Part shown: piece by piece, positions 4,439 to 23,487 of the stretch
How positions within the stretch are numbered: position 1 is the stretch's first letter
Layout of the letters: each line of letters starts with the position of its first letter
IMG/VR virus record: IMGVR_UViG_3300031758_000583
Location: 1-23,487 of that record
Reading direction: 5' to 3' (one strand)
Length of the DNA stretch: 23,487 nt
Origin: a virus
The notes under the pieces: model-generated
Databases searched by the model: none
What the model saw: only the letters and a program-made list of their open reading frames with translations
What the model was told of the DNA's origin: nothing
Translations under genes and position numbers: made by a program

Positions 4439-6680
4439 ATGTTTATCGATAATGATTTCCCGAAGATTCTTGGTGCGGAACTTTACCGTCCTCACCCTGC
4501 ATACATCGTTGAGATGGCTGCAGAGCCGGTTGACAAACCAGCCGCCTCTCTGAGTAATCGGAGAGTGAAAACCCGGTGAATTGCTGGAAACCCTTCTTAA
4601 AAGCTTCAGGCCCTACAACGTAGCCGGCGACGGCAAGCGTGAATGGTTAAAAAGTCTGAAGTCTGGGGCAATCAGCAGCCAAGCCTCTCAGGAATGAGTG
4701 GAAGGTTCATCGACTAGGGCATACGATCCAGACCGGATTATGAAGTCCACTAGCGCCGGGGCTCCCAGTATTGTTCGTAAGCTTTAAGCTTTCGCTCAAT
4801 ACCTAGACTAGATCCTCCGTAAATAGCCTGTATGGCTTTTGCGTCCCTGATGTAACCGGGAATAGAATACAAATCTTTCCCGTTTTTGGTTAGCTCTGAT
4901 TTAATCGGAAGACTTAAGCCACTAACGTCGAGGATCCAAGTCTGAAGCTGGTAAGCAAACTCTAGAGAAGCCGTGGTGACTTTAAACCGACGTTCTGTAA
5001 CGGATCCGTCGCCGTCCCACACTCCTCTTAGAAAGTCCTTTTTAAACTCACGGAGGTTACAAGAAAGTTTCAAAGTGTAGGACTTGTTAGGTGTTATACC
5101 TAACTTAAGTAAATCCTCCACTAAAGACTTTTTACTAAGAACTAAAATTTTTTGAGGGGCACAGTTCCTTTCATTAATTTTAGAAATCTTTGTTTTAAGT
5201 TCTGGAGCACCTTCACCTAAGAACTTTCTAAACTGCTCTAAAATGTTACAATCTTGTTCTTTTAGAGCTATCCTCGCTGCCGTTAATCTAGGACTTATGT
5301 TTCCATCTGCTGCTAACAAACCTAGAAAGTAAGCTTTATCTGGCGTATCGATGATCTCAAAATAGCGATCATTGTAATCCAGAAAAGAGTAAGTCTCTCC
5401 TGATTTTCTCTTACGCTTACCGGTTTGTTCGAAATAAGATGGAATACCTAGTTTCTTCCTAGCTTTATAAAAAGTCACCATCGTTACACCTAGAACTTTA
5501 GCTGCTTCAACATCTGGCATTTTCGAAGCCAGTTCTTGAACAACAGAAAACTCTGGGTTAAAACGTTCAAAGCGTGACATCTGGGAGCAAGATATAGTCA
5601 GTGCCCTAGGGATGAGAAACCTAGGGAGCGGACCCGGACTCAGGGATCCTAACACGTGTTGTCCACGACTTTTCAAAGCAACCCGGCCAGACGGTTCAGT
5701 TAGATCGTTACCGTTTCTTCGGTAACCCCGGCTCCAAAGAATCTCGCGAGCGTACTGCTGAGCAGACCATTGGTACTGCTAACAGCCGCAATATCGTGAA
5801 GGATAAGGTGCTCGTGACGCTTCGCGAGTACACCGGTCCTGCTGACCCGAGTGACCCCACTCAGCCCAGCACCTTCAAGATTGCGCGTGAGACCCTGATT
5901 ACCGCCCAGCGTCTGCTGCTGGACACCGGTAACCTCACCACCTTCCACCAATCGATCGGCAGCCTGACTCTGCTCGACGACTATCGTCGTTGGCGCGACC
6001 GGGTGTTCATCAATGAACTCCTGAAGGCTGTTTCTAAGGGTCAGTCTTCTGACACCCAAGGCGGTTACTACTTCCCTGGTGACCTGGCCACTGGTGCTCT
6101 GACCTACACCAACGCCGAGCAAGCTAAGTTCGACGTTAAGGATGACCTGCTGCGCGTGGTGAAGAGCCTGCGTAAGCGGAACACCCCCACCTTCCAGGAC
6201 GGTTTCTATCGCTGCGTTTGCGATCCGACCTTCCTGATGCACCTGCGTCAGAACAGCGACTTCCGTGAAGTTGCTCGTTATCCTGGCAATGGTCAAATCA
6301 ACCCCCTCATGTCCGGGATGCAGCCCAACGCTGCCCTGTACATGGGTCAAGGCTTTGGCCAAGCCACCTTTGTGGCCGGCGAGCCGATCATGCCCACGGG
6401 CTTTGTGTTTGAAGGCGTGCGCTTCTTCGAAAGCACCAACATGCCTACTCAAACTCAAAACGCGACCATCGCGTCTACCGCCGCTTCCTACAACGCAGCA
6501 GTCGGTATCTTCTTTGGTCCTCAGGCCGTTGGTGTCGGCATCGGTGGCAACAATGCCCAGGTGCTGCTCAACAACAACGACGACTTCAGCCGTTTCATCA
6601 TGATGATTTGGAGCCTGTACGCAGGTTTCGAACTTCTGAACGCTGATTTCGTCACCGTTGGTTACTCTTTCGACGCTTGA
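4439..6680 (+). CDS. Major capsid protein, split by a group I intron
   Basis: The coding sequence is join(4439..4530, 5657..6680), 371 residues. Exon 1 (MFIDNDFPKILGAELYRPHP and about 10 more residues) continues in frame only if 4531–5656 is removed: the last two bases of exon 1 (GT) join the T at 5657 to give a Val codon, producing AAEPVVVHDF. Exon 2 then reads through VHDFSKQPGQTVQLDRYRFF and on to TGA 6678. Reading exon 1 without splicing hits TGA at 4577 after 46 codons, so capsid production needs splicing. The protein is a cyanophage-type major capsid protein, presumably of HK97 fold (inference from family and position). Codons are strongly biased to C-ending forms, as in highly expressed genes. 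It is followed at 15 nt by a second, equally biased structural gene with a strong ribosome site, then a terminator. Confidence 0.9.
4531..5656 (+). mobile_element. Group I self-splicing intron in the capsid gene
   Basis: This is a 1126-nt intron. P1: exon end AGAGCCGGU (4522–4530) pairs with the internal guide GCCGCCUCU (4541–4549) with one mismatch and the required U·G at the splice site. A P4-side AATTGCTGGAAACC (4579–4592) and a Q-like AATCAGCAGCCAAGCC (4670–4685) match the conserved core of phage group I introns. P3 is GCCCT (4610–4614) with AGGGC (4716–4720). P7 is GACTA (4712–4716) with TAGTC (5595–5599), inside the classic AAGATATAGTC element. P8 is TCCAGA (4727–4732) with TCTGGG (5580–5585). 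P9 is CCCTAGG (5604–5610) with CCTAGGG (5620–5626). The last base is G (5656). A P10 of exon TGTT with intron GACA is possible. All core parts are present, so splicing activity is expected; the L8 loop carries the endonuclease gene on the other strand. Confidence 0.92.
4750..5580 (-). CDS. LAGLIDADG homing endonuclease, antisense within the intron
   Basis: A 276-residue protein with two LAGLIDADG motifs, YFLGLLAADG (residues 84–93) and FLRGVWDGDG (183–192), each keeping the acidic catalytic residue (D92, D191), so a monomeric two-motif enzyme that cuts an intronless allele to spread the intron. An N-terminal HTH-like segment (residues 23–47, DVEAAKVLGVTMVTFYKARK) probably helps DNA binding. 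The frame is open further upstream to 5676, but that would extend into capsid exon 2; ATG 5580 is chosen because it sits exactly at the P8 stem base, so the whole gene lies in loop L8. It is transcribed opposite to the intron and capsid mRNA, so it needs its own minus-strand promoter. No clear ribosome site precedes it. AT-rich codons differ from the C-rich capsid exons, consistent with an invading element. Confidence 0.92.
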   Translation of the reverse strand: MSRFERFNPEFSVVQELASKMPDVEAAKVLGVTMVTFYKARKKLGIPSYFEQTGKRKRKSGETYSFLDYNDRYFEIIDTPDKAYFLGLLAADGNISPRLTAARIALKEQDCNILEQFRKFLGEGAPELKTKISKINERNCAPQKILVLSKKSLVEDLLKLGITPNKSYTLKLSCNLREFKKDFLRGVWDGDGSVTERRFKVTTASLEFAYQLQTWILDVSGLSLPIKSELTKNGKDLYSIPGYIRDAKAIQAIYGGSSLGIERKLKAYEQYWEPRR

Positions 6681-13706: not shown

Positions 13707-14407
13707 TGGCTTCAACACCTGTAATTCTTCTTTCTAAGCGCAGCGGTAACTCATCAGATCGACCTAACGCCGCCACGGTTCAGGCCGGTGAACTCGCTAT
13801 GTCCTTTGGGGCGGCGGATCCAGGTCTGTACTTCAAAGATTCTGCCGGATCGATTAGAAAGTTTGGATCAAATCACTACGGAACTACCTCTCCCAACTCC
13901 AGTCCACTCGGTTCGCCAGGTAACTCAGTAGGAGAGTTGTGGGCGGATTCTTCAACTAGTAATTACTATCTCCGTGTTTGGACTGGCGCTGCTTGGCAGA
14001 AGGTCGGTGCCGGTTTTGCTGACACTGCTAACTCAGCCAATACCGCAGTTACGGCCAATAGTGCAGCAACAGCAACTGTGGCTAATTCAACCATCGTCGC
14101 AAGTGGAGCTTTGTCAGCTGTAGTTGCCAGCGGCTCCTTGTCAGCTGTTATCGCTAGTGGCGCATTATCCGCTGTAGTCGCTAGTGGTTCGATCTCTGCT
14201 GTTATCTCTAGTGGCGCATTATCCGCTGTAGTCGCTAGTGGTTCGATCTCTGCTGTTATCTCTAGTGGTTCACTTTCAGCAGTAGTTGCTAGCGGCATCG
14301 CCGTTGTTACGGCATTGCCTGCCGCATCCACCGGCTCCCTTGTTTATTTGAATGCCGGCACTAGCGGTCTGTATGTTTCAGCTAACGGCGGCTGGATTCT
14401 CACATAG
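13706..14407 (+). CDS. Tail-fibre-like protein with 9-residue repeats
   Basis: A 233-residue protein. Residues 1–55 match a domain frequent at phage fibre N termini (ILLSKRSGNSSDRP … AGELAMSF … GLYFKD). Residues 76–100 carry a GELWAD … LRVWTGAAWQKV module that also recurs three times in the gene at 21622. Residues 105–130 are Ala/Thr/Asn-rich, and 132–194 consist of seven tandem 9-residue repeats of the form [AS]SG[AS][LI]SAV[VI]. A final beta segment (GLYVSANGGWILT) ends the protein. This is a trimeric beta-structured fibre or tail needle by analogy (inference). It starts inside the previous stop and overlaps the convergent Dps-like gene by 8 nt. Confidence 0.75.
   Translation: MASTPVILLSKRSGNSSDRPNAATVQAGELAMSFGAADPGLYFKDSAGSIRKFGSNHYGTTSPNSSPLGSPGNSVGELWADSSTSNYYLRVWTGAAWQKVGAGFADTANSANTAVTANSAATATVANSTIVASGALSAVVASGSLSAVIASGALSAVVASGSISAVISSGALSAVVASGSISAVISSGSLSAVVASGIAVVTALPAASTGSLVYLNAGTSGLYVSANGGWILT
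14161..14268 (+). repeat. Perfect 54-bp tandem duplication in fibre gene
   Basis: Two identical 54-bp copies (14161–14214 and 14215–14268) lie within a longer array of degenerate 27-bp units, each encoding the 9-residue repeat. Flanking units differ at many third positions, so this pair is a recent duplication of two adjacent units and a likely site of copy-number change. Confidence 0.95.
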
Positions 14408-14942
14408 AGCCACGCAGCGTGGCCTTCATCATCCAAGCTCCCTTGAATAAGTTGCCGCAGATCTCAGCTGCATAATTTTCGACATCCGGTGCACCTGTCT
14501 GGCGTGCAGCTTCAGTGAGATCTTTTGCCATCATGGCGCCTGCCTCTAGATTTTTAGTGTAGAGAGTAAGACCCTCGCGAGCGTCGTATGTTTTAACGGC
14601 AGGAAACTTTTTAAAGGCGTCGAATAGACCACATTGACACATAGGCATAAGATAGTCCATGCTGCGCACCAGCTCAGCCACAGTGTCAAAGTCAGAAGTA
14701 TGTTGCTGATACTGTTCTTTTAAGAATTCGTGAATCGCCAAGAAGTTAGAGCACTCGACGTTTAGATGCAAAAGGTGAGCTTGTATGTTTAATTGATATA
14801 AATAAGAGGCAAAGGAGACCATCTGATAAACGAGGTTATCAGGCGTGGCCTCCTTTGTGATAACGACCTCCTCCTTAATAACTTCTTGCTTAGGCGCCTC
14901 AGAGGCGTTTTGAAAGATGTCAGCTAAAGAGGAGGTGTTCAT
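14400..14942 (-). CDS. dps-like: Dps-like (ferritin-family) protein
   Basis: A 180-residue protein. After a disordered Glu/Lys-rich N terminus (1–33), residues 36–178 follow the Dps four-helix pattern: HLNVECSNFLAIHEFLKEQY and FDTVAELVRSMDYL align with the E. coli Dps HWN…H…D…D…AE region, and the C-terminal GAWMMKATL matches its final WML helix. Of the five intersubunit ferroxidase residues of E. coli Dps (H51, H63, D67, D78, E82), four are kept here as H59, H71, D86 and E90, and D67 is replaced by K75. Dps proteins form 12-subunit cages that oxidise and store iron with peroxide and protect DNA. An additional C102-x-C104 is present. It is 9 nt downstream of an HTH gene on the same strand and probably in one operon. 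Function during infection (oxidative or iron protection) is inferred. Confidence 0.8.
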   Translation of the reverse strand: MNTSSLADIFQNASEAPKQEVIKEEVVITKEATPDNLVYQMVSFASYLYQLNIQAHLLHLNVECSNFLAIHEFLKEQYQQHTSDFDTVAELVRSMDYLMPMCQCGLFDAFKKFPAVKTYDAREGLTLYTKNLEAGAMMAKDLTEAARQTGAPDVENYAAEICGNLFKGAWMMKATLRGSM

Positions 14943-14951
14943 TGTCGGCTA

Positions 14952-15203
14952 TCAGACAGCACAAGCAGCGCTTTCTTCTACTTTAGCCTCTTCCTCCGCA
15001 GAGTTCAGATAAGCCTCCAGAGCATCTTTGTTGATGCGGTACAGGGACTTTGCACCATTTGGTTGCAGATTGACGAAGATGCCTTTGGGCCAGCCACCGG
15101 GTTGGTTGGACTCAGTGAGAGAAATACGCTTACGTACAAAGCCTGCAGAGCAGTTCAGCAGCTCAGCGGTCTGGGCGATGGTCAAGAGCCTTGCGGATTC
15201 CAT
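14952..15203 (-). CDS. Excisionase/MerR-type helix-turn-helix DNA-binding protein
   Basis: An 83-residue protein. Residues 5–30 (LLTIAQTAELLNCSAGFVRK) form the winged-HTH opening typical of excisionase/AlpA/MerR-like small proteins, followed by a wing (GGWPKGIFVNLQP) and a helix ending ALEAYLNSAEEEAKVEES. It lies just upstream of the Dps-like gene and is divergent from the gene at 15339. A perfect 7-bp inverted repeat stands 9 nt before its ATG and may be its operator. No integrase is nearby, so a transcription-regulator role for the Dps unit is more likely than excision. Confidence 0.75.
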   Translation of the reverse strand: MESARLLTIAQTAELLNCSAGFVRKRISLTESNQPGGWPKGIFVNLQPNGAKSLYRINKDALEAYLNSAEEEAKVEESAACAV

Positions 15204-15338: not shown

Positions 15339-15587
15339 GTGACCATACGGATTGCTGGAGAGGTTTTTAAAGGCTACAACCAGCCTCGTCGCGACTCGGA
15401 TGGAGGCAAGAAGTTTGCCGTGGCCGCGAAAGAAGGCGACCAAGTTCGTCTTGTTCGTTTTGGGGACCCGAATATGACTATCAAGAAACATATACCAGAA
15501 CGTCGTGAAAACTTTAGAGCACGTCACAACTGTGACAACCCTGGGAGCAAGTTAAAAGCACGTTACTGGAGTTGTCGAGCTTGGTAA
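15339..15587 (+). CDS. Small conserved phage protein (YNQP…YW family, DUF6321-like)
   Basis: An 82-residue protein from GTG 15339; an in-frame TAG at 15318 leaves little choice of start. It has the conserved plan of a small phage protein family: FKGYNQPRR, FAVAAKEGDQVRLVRFGDPN, then RRENFRARHNCDN and a final KARYWSCRAW. Three cysteines (two in the C-terminal half around RHNCDN and YWSC) may bind metal. The family is widespread in tailed phages and I remember it as DUF6321, but the name should be checked. It is the first plus-strand gene after the divergent HTH gene and 55 nt before the NblA-like gene. Function unknown. Confidence 0.7.
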   Translation: MTIRIAGEVFKGYNQPRRDSDGGKKFAVAAKEGDQVRLVRFGDPNMTIKKHIPERRENFRARHNCDNPGSKLKARYWSCRAW

Positions 15588-15641: not shown

Positions 15642-15881
15642 GTGAAAGAGGAGCATGGCCAGCTGCGGGTCGGCTTGACACTTGAAGACGACTTCACTCT
15701 TACGCGCCTTAAGAACGCTGCGCAACAACTGAAGGGTGAAGCACGCGATCAGTACCTCTGGAAAACTATTTTTAAATTTGTGTGTCGTGAGCGAGCGTTT
15801 AAGTCGGTCATGGAAGAGATAGGCGTTGTGATTGACACTAATGTCGATATTTTTGAAGATTTAACAGAGGAGAAGGATTAA
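15642..15881 (+). CDS. nblA-like: NblA-like phycobilisome degradation adaptor
   Basis: A 79-residue protein. Residues 12–50 align without gaps to cyanobacterial NblA: LTLEDDFTL matches NblA LSLEQQFSL, and the NblA Arg-Glu pair of the second helix falls at exactly the same distance (R49-E50). Between them are the expected amphipathic helix, a QYLWKTIF segment equivalent to NblA DFLVQLYE, and a loop. NblA dimers bind phycobiliproteins and recruit Clp protease to dismantle phycobilisomes; NblA genes are known in cyanophages of Microcystis, Planktothrix and marine cyanobacteria. An acidic C-terminal extension (DTNVDIFEDLTEEKD) is longer than usual. It starts at GTG without a clear ribosome site. 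Supports a phycobilisome-containing host. Short length means similarity should be confirmed by profile search. Confidence 0.65.
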   Translation: MKEEHGQLRVGLTLEDDFTLTRLKNAAQQLKGEARDQYLWKTIFKFVCRERAFKSVMEEIGVVIDTNVDIFEDLTEEKD

Positions 15882-15912: not shown

Positions 15913-16785
15913 ATGTCTCAGACAAGAGCTCTGCTGGAATCCTGGCAACAGCAAAACCCAGGATTATTCAGGGGTCTTCAGCAGGCTCTAAGTCGGGCGG
16001 AAGGTACTTGGCGAGGTAACGCACCTGGTTACAACGTCCTCTTTGGCGGAGGACAGTTCAACGATTATTCAAGACACCCGGACAAAGTAATCAAGTCTCC
16101 GGGAGGTTACGCCAGCGCGGCTGCAGGCGCCTACCAGTTCATGCCGGGCACGTATCAAGAAGTTGCTAGGCAGTTGGGGTTGAAAGATTTCAGTCCTGAA
16201 AGCCAGGACTTAGCCATGCTGTACAAGGTCCGACAGCGGCTGATGCCGGTGGGAGGCTTAGCAGCGCTCACCAAGGAAGGCACACTTAGTCCAGCGCTGC
16301 AGGATTATTTGGCGCCCGAGTGGGCGTCGATCCCCACGGCGGAGGGAGGGAGTTTTTACGGCCAGCCGGTCAAACGCTCGTCACAGGTCTCCGCGTGGTT
16401 TGACGAAGGAGCTCGAAACGCGTCTAAAGGTCCTGCGCCTACTGCTGCTAAACCTTCTACAGCGCAGGATAAGGCTACGGGTTTATTGAATAAATTTATA
16501 AACCTATTAGGTATAACTGGAGCTTTGCAACAGCTTGGTCCACAGTCCTCGACACAGCGTCCTGAGTTTATTGATTACTCCGAAAAAAGCACGGCTCCTG
16601 ACCCTGGTGCGGAGCTTCTGCTTGACCTTTATAAGACTCAACGCCGCGATGAGAATATCCAGCAATTGGCTGAAGAAGAAGCTGCTGTTCAATTAAGAAG
16701 AAATCAAACGGCTATTCAACAAGCGCAAGCTCAATTGCTTGCTCAGGCTTTGAGTTCTTTTGGAGCTCCTAAGTCAGTTATTTAA
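15913..16785 (+). CDS. GH104 (lambda R-type) lysozyme with C-terminal coiled coil, virion-associated candidate
   Basis: A 290-residue protein. Residues 20–165 match the lambda R transglycosylase family: AEGTW (29–33, with E30 at the place of the lambda catalytic Glu19), GGGQFNDYSRHP (45–56), AAGAYQFMPGTY (70–81), LKDFSPESQDLA (90–101) and EWASIP (136–141). The reaction is cleavage of peptidoglycan glycan strands. Unlike lambda R it has a 120-residue extension: an Ala/Pro linker, a short hydrophobic helix (LLNKFINLLGITGAL), and a long Gln/Ala/Glu coiled coil (243–280). No signal peptide is seen. The extension and its location among virion genes suggest a particle-bound entry lysozyme rather than the lysis endolysin. 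A GGAGGT (15895–15900) lies upstream. It ends with the motif LLAQALSSFGAPKSVI shared with the next protein. Confidence 0.85.
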   Translation: MSQTRALLESWQQQNPGLFRGLQQALSRAEGTWRGNAPGYNVLFGGGQFNDYSRHPDKVIKSPGGYASAAAGAYQFMPGTYQEVARQLGLKDFSPESQDLAMLYKVRQRLMPVGGLAALTKEGTLSPALQDYLAPEWASIPTAEGGSFYGQPVKRSSQVSAWFDEGARNASKGPAPTAAKPSTAQDKATGLLNKFINLLGITGALQQLGPQSSTQRPEFIDYSEKSTAPDPGAELLLDLYKTQRRDENIQQLAEEEAAVQLRRNQTAIQQAQAQLLAQALSSFGAPKSVI

Positions 16786-17994: not shown

Positions 17995-18287
17995 TGAGCG
18001 ATTTCCGGCGTTCACAATCTGAGAGACGTGCGGAATCTTTCGGTCAAAGGAGATTACATCACGTCGATCGAGAGCCAAAGTTTCATCGATTGGCTGGAGA
18101 AATTTTTGGGGTTGAGTCTCGGGAAAGGGCTCGTCAACAGAACAGAGAAGTTCGCTCACGTTTGCAAGCTTCACGCCCCGTGGGCGTAGGCTTTGGTGAA
18201 AAAGATAGTTATGGACCAGATGATTCTTGGGACACGAAAGACCCCATTAAACATACACCCTCCCCAAATTACTATAATGTTCGATAA
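17994..18287 (+). CDS. Small Arg-rich protein, unknown
   Basis: A 97-residue strongly basic protein (RRSQSERRAESFGQRRLHHV and RERARQQNREVRSRL) followed by a Gly/Asp-rich tail ending in PSPNYYNVR. Starts at ATG 17994 inside the previous stop, so it is translationally coupled. Its 3' end overlaps the convergent methyltransferase-like gene by 41 nt. A nucleic-acid-binding or virion-basic-protein role is possible from charge alone. No family recognised. Confidence 0.55.
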   Translation: MSDFRRSQSERRAESFGQRRLHHVDREPKFHRLAGEIFGVESRERARQQNREVRSRLQASRPVGVGFGEKDSYGPDDSWDTKDPIKHTPSPNYYNVR

Positions 18288-18837
18288 ATTGTTTAACACT
18301 TACCTCGTAATTTAGTTGCGGCGGTAAGTAATATAAGAATCCAAACACTTTAGATTTAACAGCACTTAAATCCTGTTCTCTGATTAGTGTTGGTTTTTCT
18401 GCTAACACACACAGCGGAAAGTCGAATCCAATCTTTTGAGTGACTAGCAACGCGACTTCAGTGGAAGTTAAAAATATTATTGCTTGTCCAAGTTCGTTAC
18501 GTAACCACTTCTGATAACACAGTTCTAACCAAACACGCTGCGCTGACTTTTTGAACCTTAATGATTTTTCGAACAGCTTTATATTTTTTGGTTGCTCGTC
18601 TCCTGATAAAACACTTCTAGGAGGATATAGATAAACTTTATCTGCTTTCCACGGCTGGATTAATCCGTTTTCACGCCAAGTGAAGAAACGATCAGCTTGG
18701 ACTATCGAGTTGGCGGATTGACTAGACGCAGGATCTAAATCTATCGAACCTCCAAAGAAAGCCGCTGTGGTAGCAACTACTTCTGGCGGAGATATAAAGT
18801 CAGCATCAGTAAATGAGACCGTTTGAATATTCATCAA
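18247..18837 (-). CDS. Dam-like phage DNA adenine methyltransferase with altered catalytic motif
   Basis: A 196-residue protein. FISPPEVVATTAAFFGGSID followed by LDPASS and a downstream ADRFFT … GLIQPW match the phage N-6-adenine methyltransferase (Dam, PF05869-type) plan: PPEV, GGIDLDPASS, FFT..DGL.QPW. The C-terminal FGFLYYLPP matches the family end. Instead of the catalytic [ND]PPY the sequence reads LYPPRS (residues about 71–76). N becomes Y and Y becomes R, so normal adenine-N6 chemistry is doubtful; it may be a divergent subfamily, a binding protein or a decoy. It overlaps the upstream gene by 32 nt and lies at the 3' end of the minus-strand operon. Confidence 0.7.
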   Translation of the reverse strand: MMNIQTVSFTDADFISPPEVVATTAAFFGGSIDLDPASSQSANSIVQADRFFTWRENGLIQPWKADKVYLYPPRSVLSGDEQPKNIKLFEKSLRFKKSAQRVWLELCYQKWLRNELGQAIIFLTSTEVALLVTQKIGFDFPLCVLAEKPTLIREQDLSAVKSKVFGFLYYLPPQLNYEVSVKQFIEHYSNLGRVYV

Positions 18838-23191: not shown

Positions 23192-23487
23192 ATGGCAAGT
23201 CAGAAGATATCCCAACTGACAGCGATTACAACAGTCGCTAGCGGTGATTATTTTCCTATTGTACGCGCATCAGATGTAACTAACCGACGTGTTGAGGTTG
23301 GTGTACTAGATGCTCGCTATACTTTGGCGGCAAGCGGCGTAGCCGCTCAGAGCACGGCTAATACTGCACTTTCTTCCGGTATTGCTGCTCAGAGCACGGC
23401 TAATACTGCACTTTCTTCCGGTATTGCTGCTCAGAGCACGGCTAATACTGCACTTTCTTCCGGTATTGCTGCTCAGAGCACGGCTAA
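23192..23487 (+). CDS. Tail-fibre protein, N-terminal part (truncated by window end)
   Basis: Starts at ATG 23192 and runs off the window. The first 48 residues (MASQKISQLTAITTVASGDY, then FPIVRASDVTNRRVEVG) match the common phage fibre N-terminal domain, followed by perfect 14-residue repeats of AQSTANTALSSGIA. The domain plan (attachment head then repeat stalk) is that of a tail fibre. The repeat copy number and C-terminal receptor-binding part are outside the window. Confidence 0.75.
   Translation, partial: MASQKISQLTAITTVASGDYFPIVRASDVTNRRVEVGVLDARYTLAASGVAAQSTANTALSSGIAAQSTANTALSSGIAAQSTANTALSSGIAAQSTA
23345..23487 (+). repeat. Perfect 42-bp tandem repeats in fibre gene
   Basis: Three complete identical 42-bp copies (23345–23386, 23387–23428, 23429–23470) and the start of a fourth (23471–23487, cut by the window edge). 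Each encodes AQSTANTALSSGIA, 14 residues, or two heptads. Exact identity at wobble sites means recent expansion; the array could also be collapsed or misassembled in short-read data. Confidence 0.95.

Follow-up and report, generated by a model that had tools for sequence, protein, structure and literature searches.

A distant NblA homologue in the tail/lysozyme region of an S-EIV1-like cyanophage lineage as a putative Clp-protease adaptor

Overview

The window analysed here, a stretch of 23,487 nucleotides of viral DNA (IMG/VR record IMGVR_UViG_3300031758_000583), encodes a small protein that is, by sequence comparison, a distant homologue of NblA lying outside the NblA family (PF04485) as delimited by its curated threshold. 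The gene product is probably a divergent, phage-specific NblA homologue, a putative Clp-protease adaptor that would help to dismantle phycobilisomes, perhaps paired with a second protein. Its most likely function is that of a putative ClpC adaptor through which phycobilisomes would be broken down in infected cells, a role reported for NblA of other phages (PMC9602691).

Phage lineage and genomic context

The portal protein encoded in the window is 42% identical over its length to the portal of Synechococcus phage S-EIV1, and a Dps/ferritin-like protein encoded near the NblA-like gene is 47% identical to the DNA-binding ferritin-like protein of that phage. Assignment of the window phage to an S-EIV1-like cyanophage lineage, with the NblA-like gene fixed in its tail/lysozyme region, is well supported. 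An earlier note on this DNA, made from the letters alone, had predicted a phycobilisome-bearing host, and this prediction receives indirect support from the portal and Dps, both of which are closest to those of S-EIV1.

Within the tail/lysozyme region, a tail-like gene (phrog_356) is located upstream of the NblA-like gene. The lysozyme-like gene on its other side, the product of which is probably virion-associated, adjoins the NblA-like gene in 38 of 56 loci compared by BLAST (Table 1). The Dps gene is fixed beside the NblA-like gene and is also present in S-EIV1, with DNA protection or iron handling during infection as a candidate role. Further features observed in the window were a LAGLIDADG homing endonuclease (4750-5676, minus strand) just ahead of the capsid gene at 5796, a weak match to Dam-type DNA adenine methyltransferases at 18247-18837 on the minus strand (20.2 bits against a cut-off of 28.1; phrog_111), and tandem repeats (ALSSGIAAQSTANT units) like those of phage tail-fibre proteins at 23192-23485, within an open reading frame that continues past the end of the window. 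PADLOC returned no match, and promoters and terminators were not above chance.

Table 1. Location of the NblA-like gene, its parts, its neighbours and related genes (window coordinates unless another record is named)
Feature	Position	Strand	Evidence or remark
NblA-like gene (NblA-1)	15642..15881	+	GTG start, 79 aa; PF04485 19.3 bits
LTLEDDFTL, equivalent of the NblA N-terminal motif L-S-L-E-Q-x-F-x-L (reported ClpC-binding end)	15675..15701	+	
Predicted helix 1 (residues 14-28)	15681..15725	+	AlphaFold2 model
Predicted helix 2 (residues 33-60); W40 and C48-R-E-R-A52 invariant	15738..15821	+	AlphaFold2 model, alignment
Acidic C-terminal tail from D65, extending past the classical NblA domain	15834..15878	+	Charge
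Dps/ferritin-like	14400..14942	-	PF00210 33.6 bits; 56/56 loci (BLAST)
Small HTH (excisionase-like)	14952..15203	-	HTH_17 26.8 bits (cut-off 27); phrog_2907 E 3.5e-4; 56/56 loci (BLAST)
Small conserved upstream neighbour (phrog_7595, unknown function)	15339..15587	+	BLAST, 52/56 loci
Lysozyme-like, directly downstream	15913..16785	+	phrog_90 endolysin E 4e-25; phrog_17230 tail fibre/lysozyme E 3.5e-22
Second NblA-like gene, examples	L082 1444-1677; L083 1459-1698; also L091, L092, L093 and others	- (L082); + (L083)	
AHV82245, S-EIV1 hypothetical protein	S-EIV1 73902-74222 (L023 36363-36683)		Weak NblA match, long acidic tail

Conservation and selection

Relatives of the NblA-like gene were detected in viral contigs at 21 loci in a first scan and at 56 loci in a profile scan, and a wider profile scan returned 136 stretches, out of which 80 loci were kept. 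In 14 comparisons of the window gene with its relatives, pS ranged from 0.69 to 1.01 and pN from 0.064 to 0.298, and the median pN/pS over 105 pairs was 0.22. The open reading frame, for which the coordinates and strand given in the earlier note were correct, is well supported as a real coding gene that is conserved and subject to strong purifying selection.

Residues L12, T13, E15, D16, F18, L20, R22, A27, L30, and D36, as well as L39, W40, C48, R49, E50, R51, A52, V56, G61, and F71, were invariant in all 38 aligned sequences. The cysteine preceding the Arg-Glu pair (C48) and the acidic C-terminal extension, both of which had been singled out beforehand as unlike classical NblA, recur throughout the alignment: all 38 distinct sequences keep C48, and each of them has the extension with a net charge of -4 to -8.

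Homology to NblA

Among Pfam families, NblA (PF04485) matched the window protein best (19.3 bits, E 0.0016), with residues 12-57 placed on profile positions 2-47 of 50, a span of 46 residues without gaps. The curated PF04485 cut-off is 25 bits, and since the window protein scores below this value, as do all listed window-type relatives, it falls outside the family as curated. Among 38 relatives, 30 had a PF04485 match at E 1, more than for any other family. All of these matches were weak (best E 4.7e-4), and the remaining 8 relatives gave no PF04485 match at that threshold. CLAG, NrtR_WHD, and PutA_1st were rejected as Pfam identities, each being sub-threshold and matched by fewer relatives. 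The NCBIfam equivalog model for NblA, NF045916 (cut-off 100 bits), did not match the window protein; the NblA of Microcystis phage Ma-LMM01 itself reaches only 15.6 bits against this model. A phmmer search with the single window sequence recovered no PDB relative, and PHROGs gave nothing useful for the window protein. The only match among the genome contigs searched, in Nitrosomonas, was dismissed as a bacterial relative, being a chance occurrence of the short string GLTLEDDFT in a 49-residue open frame.

Family profiles were compared by hhalign with nine NblA references, comprised of three chains from the PDB, four genes from cyanobacterial plasmids, and two from Microcystis phages. The first family alignment (39 sequences) scored 25.5 over 50 columns; none of 300 column permutations reached the real score (maximum 17.8), and the reversed alignment scored 11.6. 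With 62 distinct family sequences the score was 26.0 (probability 55.5%, E 1.2e-4, 50 columns), and with a second phage NblA-like family (described below) added to the references it was 30.1 (probability 79%, E 1.5e-5, 63 columns). Neither of these scores was reached by any of 200 permutations (maxima 16.9 and 19.1, respectively). Four further families from these loci scored 6.7, 8.2, 10.5, and 18.1 against the NblA references, the highest value belonging to Dps, a helical protein, while the second phage family, which serves as a yardstick, scored 44.8. A search of the family profile against 177,635 PDB sequences ranked NblA 1ojh first with a weak E of 0.17 (0.28 in another search). Because the profile-profile score exceeds both the permutations and the other families of the same loci, distant homology of the window family to NblA, judged on family profiles and extending over the whole helix-loop-helix, is well supported.

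In these alignments, LTLEDDFTL (residues 12-20) and R49-E50 fall, in a single ungapped register, on LSLEQQFSI and R44-E45 of 1ojh, respectively, consistent with the earlier observation of this motif and an Arg-Glu pair at matching distance. The ungapped agreement with NblA, first put at about 39 residues, proved to be longer, i.e. 46 residues by Pfam and 50 columns by hhalign. The identity originally proposed for the gene thus holds as distant homology, backed by family profiles with controls, and does not hold at the curated Pfam cut-off.

Predicted fold

AlphaFold2 modelling based upon 38 sequences predicted helices at residues 14-28 and 33-60, with a mean pLDDT of 61.7 and blocks in the range 21-50 at 73-82. 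The predicted arrangement of a short helix 1 and a long helix 2 is as expected of NblA. The earlier note had named the joint absence of profile similarity to NblA and of a predicted two-helix antiparallel dimer fold as the result that would speak against its reading. As regards profile similarity and the two helices, this outcome did not occur: profile homology is supported (hhalign score of 26.0 across 50 columns, reached by none of 200 permutations), and the model shows a helix-loop-helix, for which the antiparallel dimer is a putative arrangement.

Foldseek searches with the window-family model did not place NblA among the matches, and the same was true for the second family, which lies partly over the Pfam cut-off. 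The Foldseek test therefore does not discriminate, given that a family with members above the cut-off fails likewise. Searches with Foldseek and VIA against the PDB and viral models yielded nothing meaningful and count neither for nor against homology.

Remodelling of the C-terminal end

The window protein resembles the NblA of cyanobacteria (PF04485; 1ojh of Anabaena PCC 7120, 3cs5, and 2q8v/2qdo) in the length and register of the helix-loop-helix, the L-[ST]-L-E-x-x-F motif, the R-E pair, an aromatic residue at the Y48 position, and about 50 ungapped columns. It differs in its Pfam score, the Q11 to D replacement, the invariant W40 and C48-R-E-R-A, the mostly acidic K53 position, and an acidic tail of approximately 15 residues. 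Within the L-x-L-E-Q-x-F motif, L12, E15, and F18 are kept in all 38 sequences and L14 in 37, and every sequence has D at the position of the glutamine (Q11 of 1ojh). Towards the other end, the position of 1ojh L51 is V in 38/38 relatives, and that of 1ojh K53 is D/E in 24 and K in only one, the basic residue being lost in 37 of the 38. L51 and K53 of Anabaena NblA are presumably residues that matter for phycobilisome binding.

As read from the alignment, the N-terminal NblA motif is largely kept and the C-terminal end is remodelled through C48-R-E-R, loss of the docking residue, and the acidic tail. PMC4103541 assigns binding of ClpC to the N-terminal NblA motif and binding of phycobiliproteins to the C-terminal motif. 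The remodelled C-terminal half of the window protein suggests a grip on cargo or partner that differs from that of classical NblA.

A second NblA-like gene in the same phages

A PF04485 search of the larger records revealed a second NblA-like gene in several of them, five of which scored above the cut-off with up to 35.8 bits, and a model of this second family was built from nine sequences. This model detected the second family in 19 of 41 IMG/VR records with the window-type gene, which correspond to 41 of the 56 profile-scan loci, and in 8 of ten further records picked by length among the 80 loci kept, for a total of 27 of 51 records, many of the 51 being fragments. All 15 examined records of at least 70 kb contain the second gene; the records without a match are shorter, the longest having 69,852 bases. 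A single stop codon was located inside the matched span in 3 of the 19 and 1 of the 8 matches. The distance between the two NblA-like genes was 25.8-32.1 kb in 11 of 13 records measured and 54-64 kb in the other two, and the neighbours of the second gene include a methyltransferase-like ORF.

The two families occur in the same genomes and share an [LT]-x-E-Q-x-F motif, a helix-loop-helix, and an extended C-terminus. However, the second family is closer to NblA, and occupies another genome position; H21 and C61 are invariant in it, and it carries an L-P end in place of C48-R-E-R. Direct profile comparison of the two families was weak, with a probability of 12.9 over 29 columns (33.5 with more sequences).

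Comparison with other phages

NblA of Microcystis phage Ma-LMM01 and its relatives is likewise a phage-encoded NblA homologue of approximately 65-80 residues. Ma-LMM01 NblA scores 52.4 bits in Pfam and adjoins nrdA, whereas the divergence of the window protein is much greater and its gene lies in the tail/lysozyme region. Nadel et al. (2019) reportedly described distant NblA homologues of uncultured phages. Marine cyanophage NblA (S-SCSM1, cyanopodoviruses, and uncultured phages) are distant homologues too. According to PMC9602691, the NblA homologue of S-SCSM1 was predicted by HHpred, and a metagenome-derived nblA was reported to be active in S. elongatus PCC 7942. NblA sequences of S-SCSM1, the cyanopodoviruses, and the uncultured phages of the 2019 study were not among the matches of the phage searches.

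A tblastn search of the window protein against cultured phages (INPHARED) gave no match at E 10. Another member of the window family and a divergent member of the second family gave only chance tblastn matches, which were rejected as cultured-phage relatives. The 1ojh segment as query matched no phage record, and NblA of the Ma-LMM01 type was reached from the second family. The S-EIV1 hypothetical protein AHV82245 resembles the window protein in its weak NblA match (16.2 bits, E 0.014), its acidic tail, and its position, which adjoins the S-EIV1 lysozyme gene and is near a distant relative (E 7e-4) of the window ORF 15339-15587, but it is matched by neither the window-family nor the second-family model.

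No match to psbA, cpeT, or chlorophyll-binding genes was obtained in 14 large IMG/VR records tested, and S-EIV1, tested alongside, gave one chlorophyll-binding match. In PMC5780444, Ma-LMM01 is likewise described as being without host-derived genes for maintaining photosynthesis. A literature search of partially available texts found no report of nblA in the S-EIV1 group, an earlier report being possible, e.g. in the paper on S-EIV1 itself. A table in PMC5332604 that covers the group holding S-EIV1 contains hli and ptoX and no nblA.

Proposed function and alternative explanations

As a putative Clp-protease adaptor, the window protein would dimerise, either with itself or with the second NblA-like protein, and would bind ClpC via the conserved N-terminal LTLED-F motif. 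It would then bring the ClpC-ClpP protease to phycobilisome proteins, the breakdown of which would free amino acids and reduce the light absorbed during infection. A role in directing phycobilisome proteolysis is plausible.

Given the paired genes and the changes at the docking end, a heterodimer or new cargo is conceivable. Synechocystis NblA1 and NblA2 reportedly form a heterodimer (work of Baier, 2014), a precedent for an arrangement, overlapping with the preferred one, in which the two phage proteins act only together. The co-occurrence of both genes in 15 of 15 records of at least 70 kb, and in 27 of 51 examined, is consistent with such obligate partners, yet co-presence within one lineage does not show interaction, S-EIV1 is matched by neither family model, and the separation of the genes by 25.8-32.1 kb in 11 of 13 records places them in regions that may differ in expression time; obligate heterodimerisation is considered rather doubtful. 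Retargeting of the adaptor, with the NblA fold and ClpC-binding end kept for other cargo (a host protein of defence, regulation, or the photosystems) and phycobilisomes left to the second protein, would account for a largely invariant N-terminal motif next to a changed docking end, for the invariance of the acidic tail and C48-R-E-R, and for the more canonical second copy in every examined record of at least 70 kb. The NblA alignment of 50-63 columns nevertheless still runs through helix 2, the alternative cargo is a candidate, and phycobilisome binding may tolerate these changes, and a retargeted adaptor is judged unlikely.

A function apart from NblA is also conceivable, in which the gene product is a small helical protein of the virion, of the tail, or of lysis control, and its resemblance to NblA stems from descent or convergence. 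Such a protein would suit the position between tail and lysozyme genes and the sub-threshold Pfam score. It is quite improbable, as NblA tops both the Pfam and the PDB sequence profile searches, and the permutation and neighbour-family controls are clearly lower.

Significance

Phage NblA genes are already known, and the kind of gene is therefore not new. What appears to be new is a divergent NblA-like family that is missed by curated models and fixed in a common S-EIV1-like cyanophage lineage, where all near-complete records examined pair it with another NblA-like gene. The analysis furthermore provides a likely role for a hypothetical gene, one which the wider scan placed in 136 stretches of viral contigs from the environment. 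Tentatively, this widespread lineage may possess a two-protein phage Clp-adaptor system comprised of a near-canonical NblA in one module and a rebuilt NblA in that of the tail and lysozyme genes. The two would act as a heterodimer or upon different cargo, and the rebuilt protein would redirect the host ClpC-ClpP to a new target. The pair represents a testable system for asking whether a phage steers the host protease with two adaptors, be it as a heterodimer or through different cargo.
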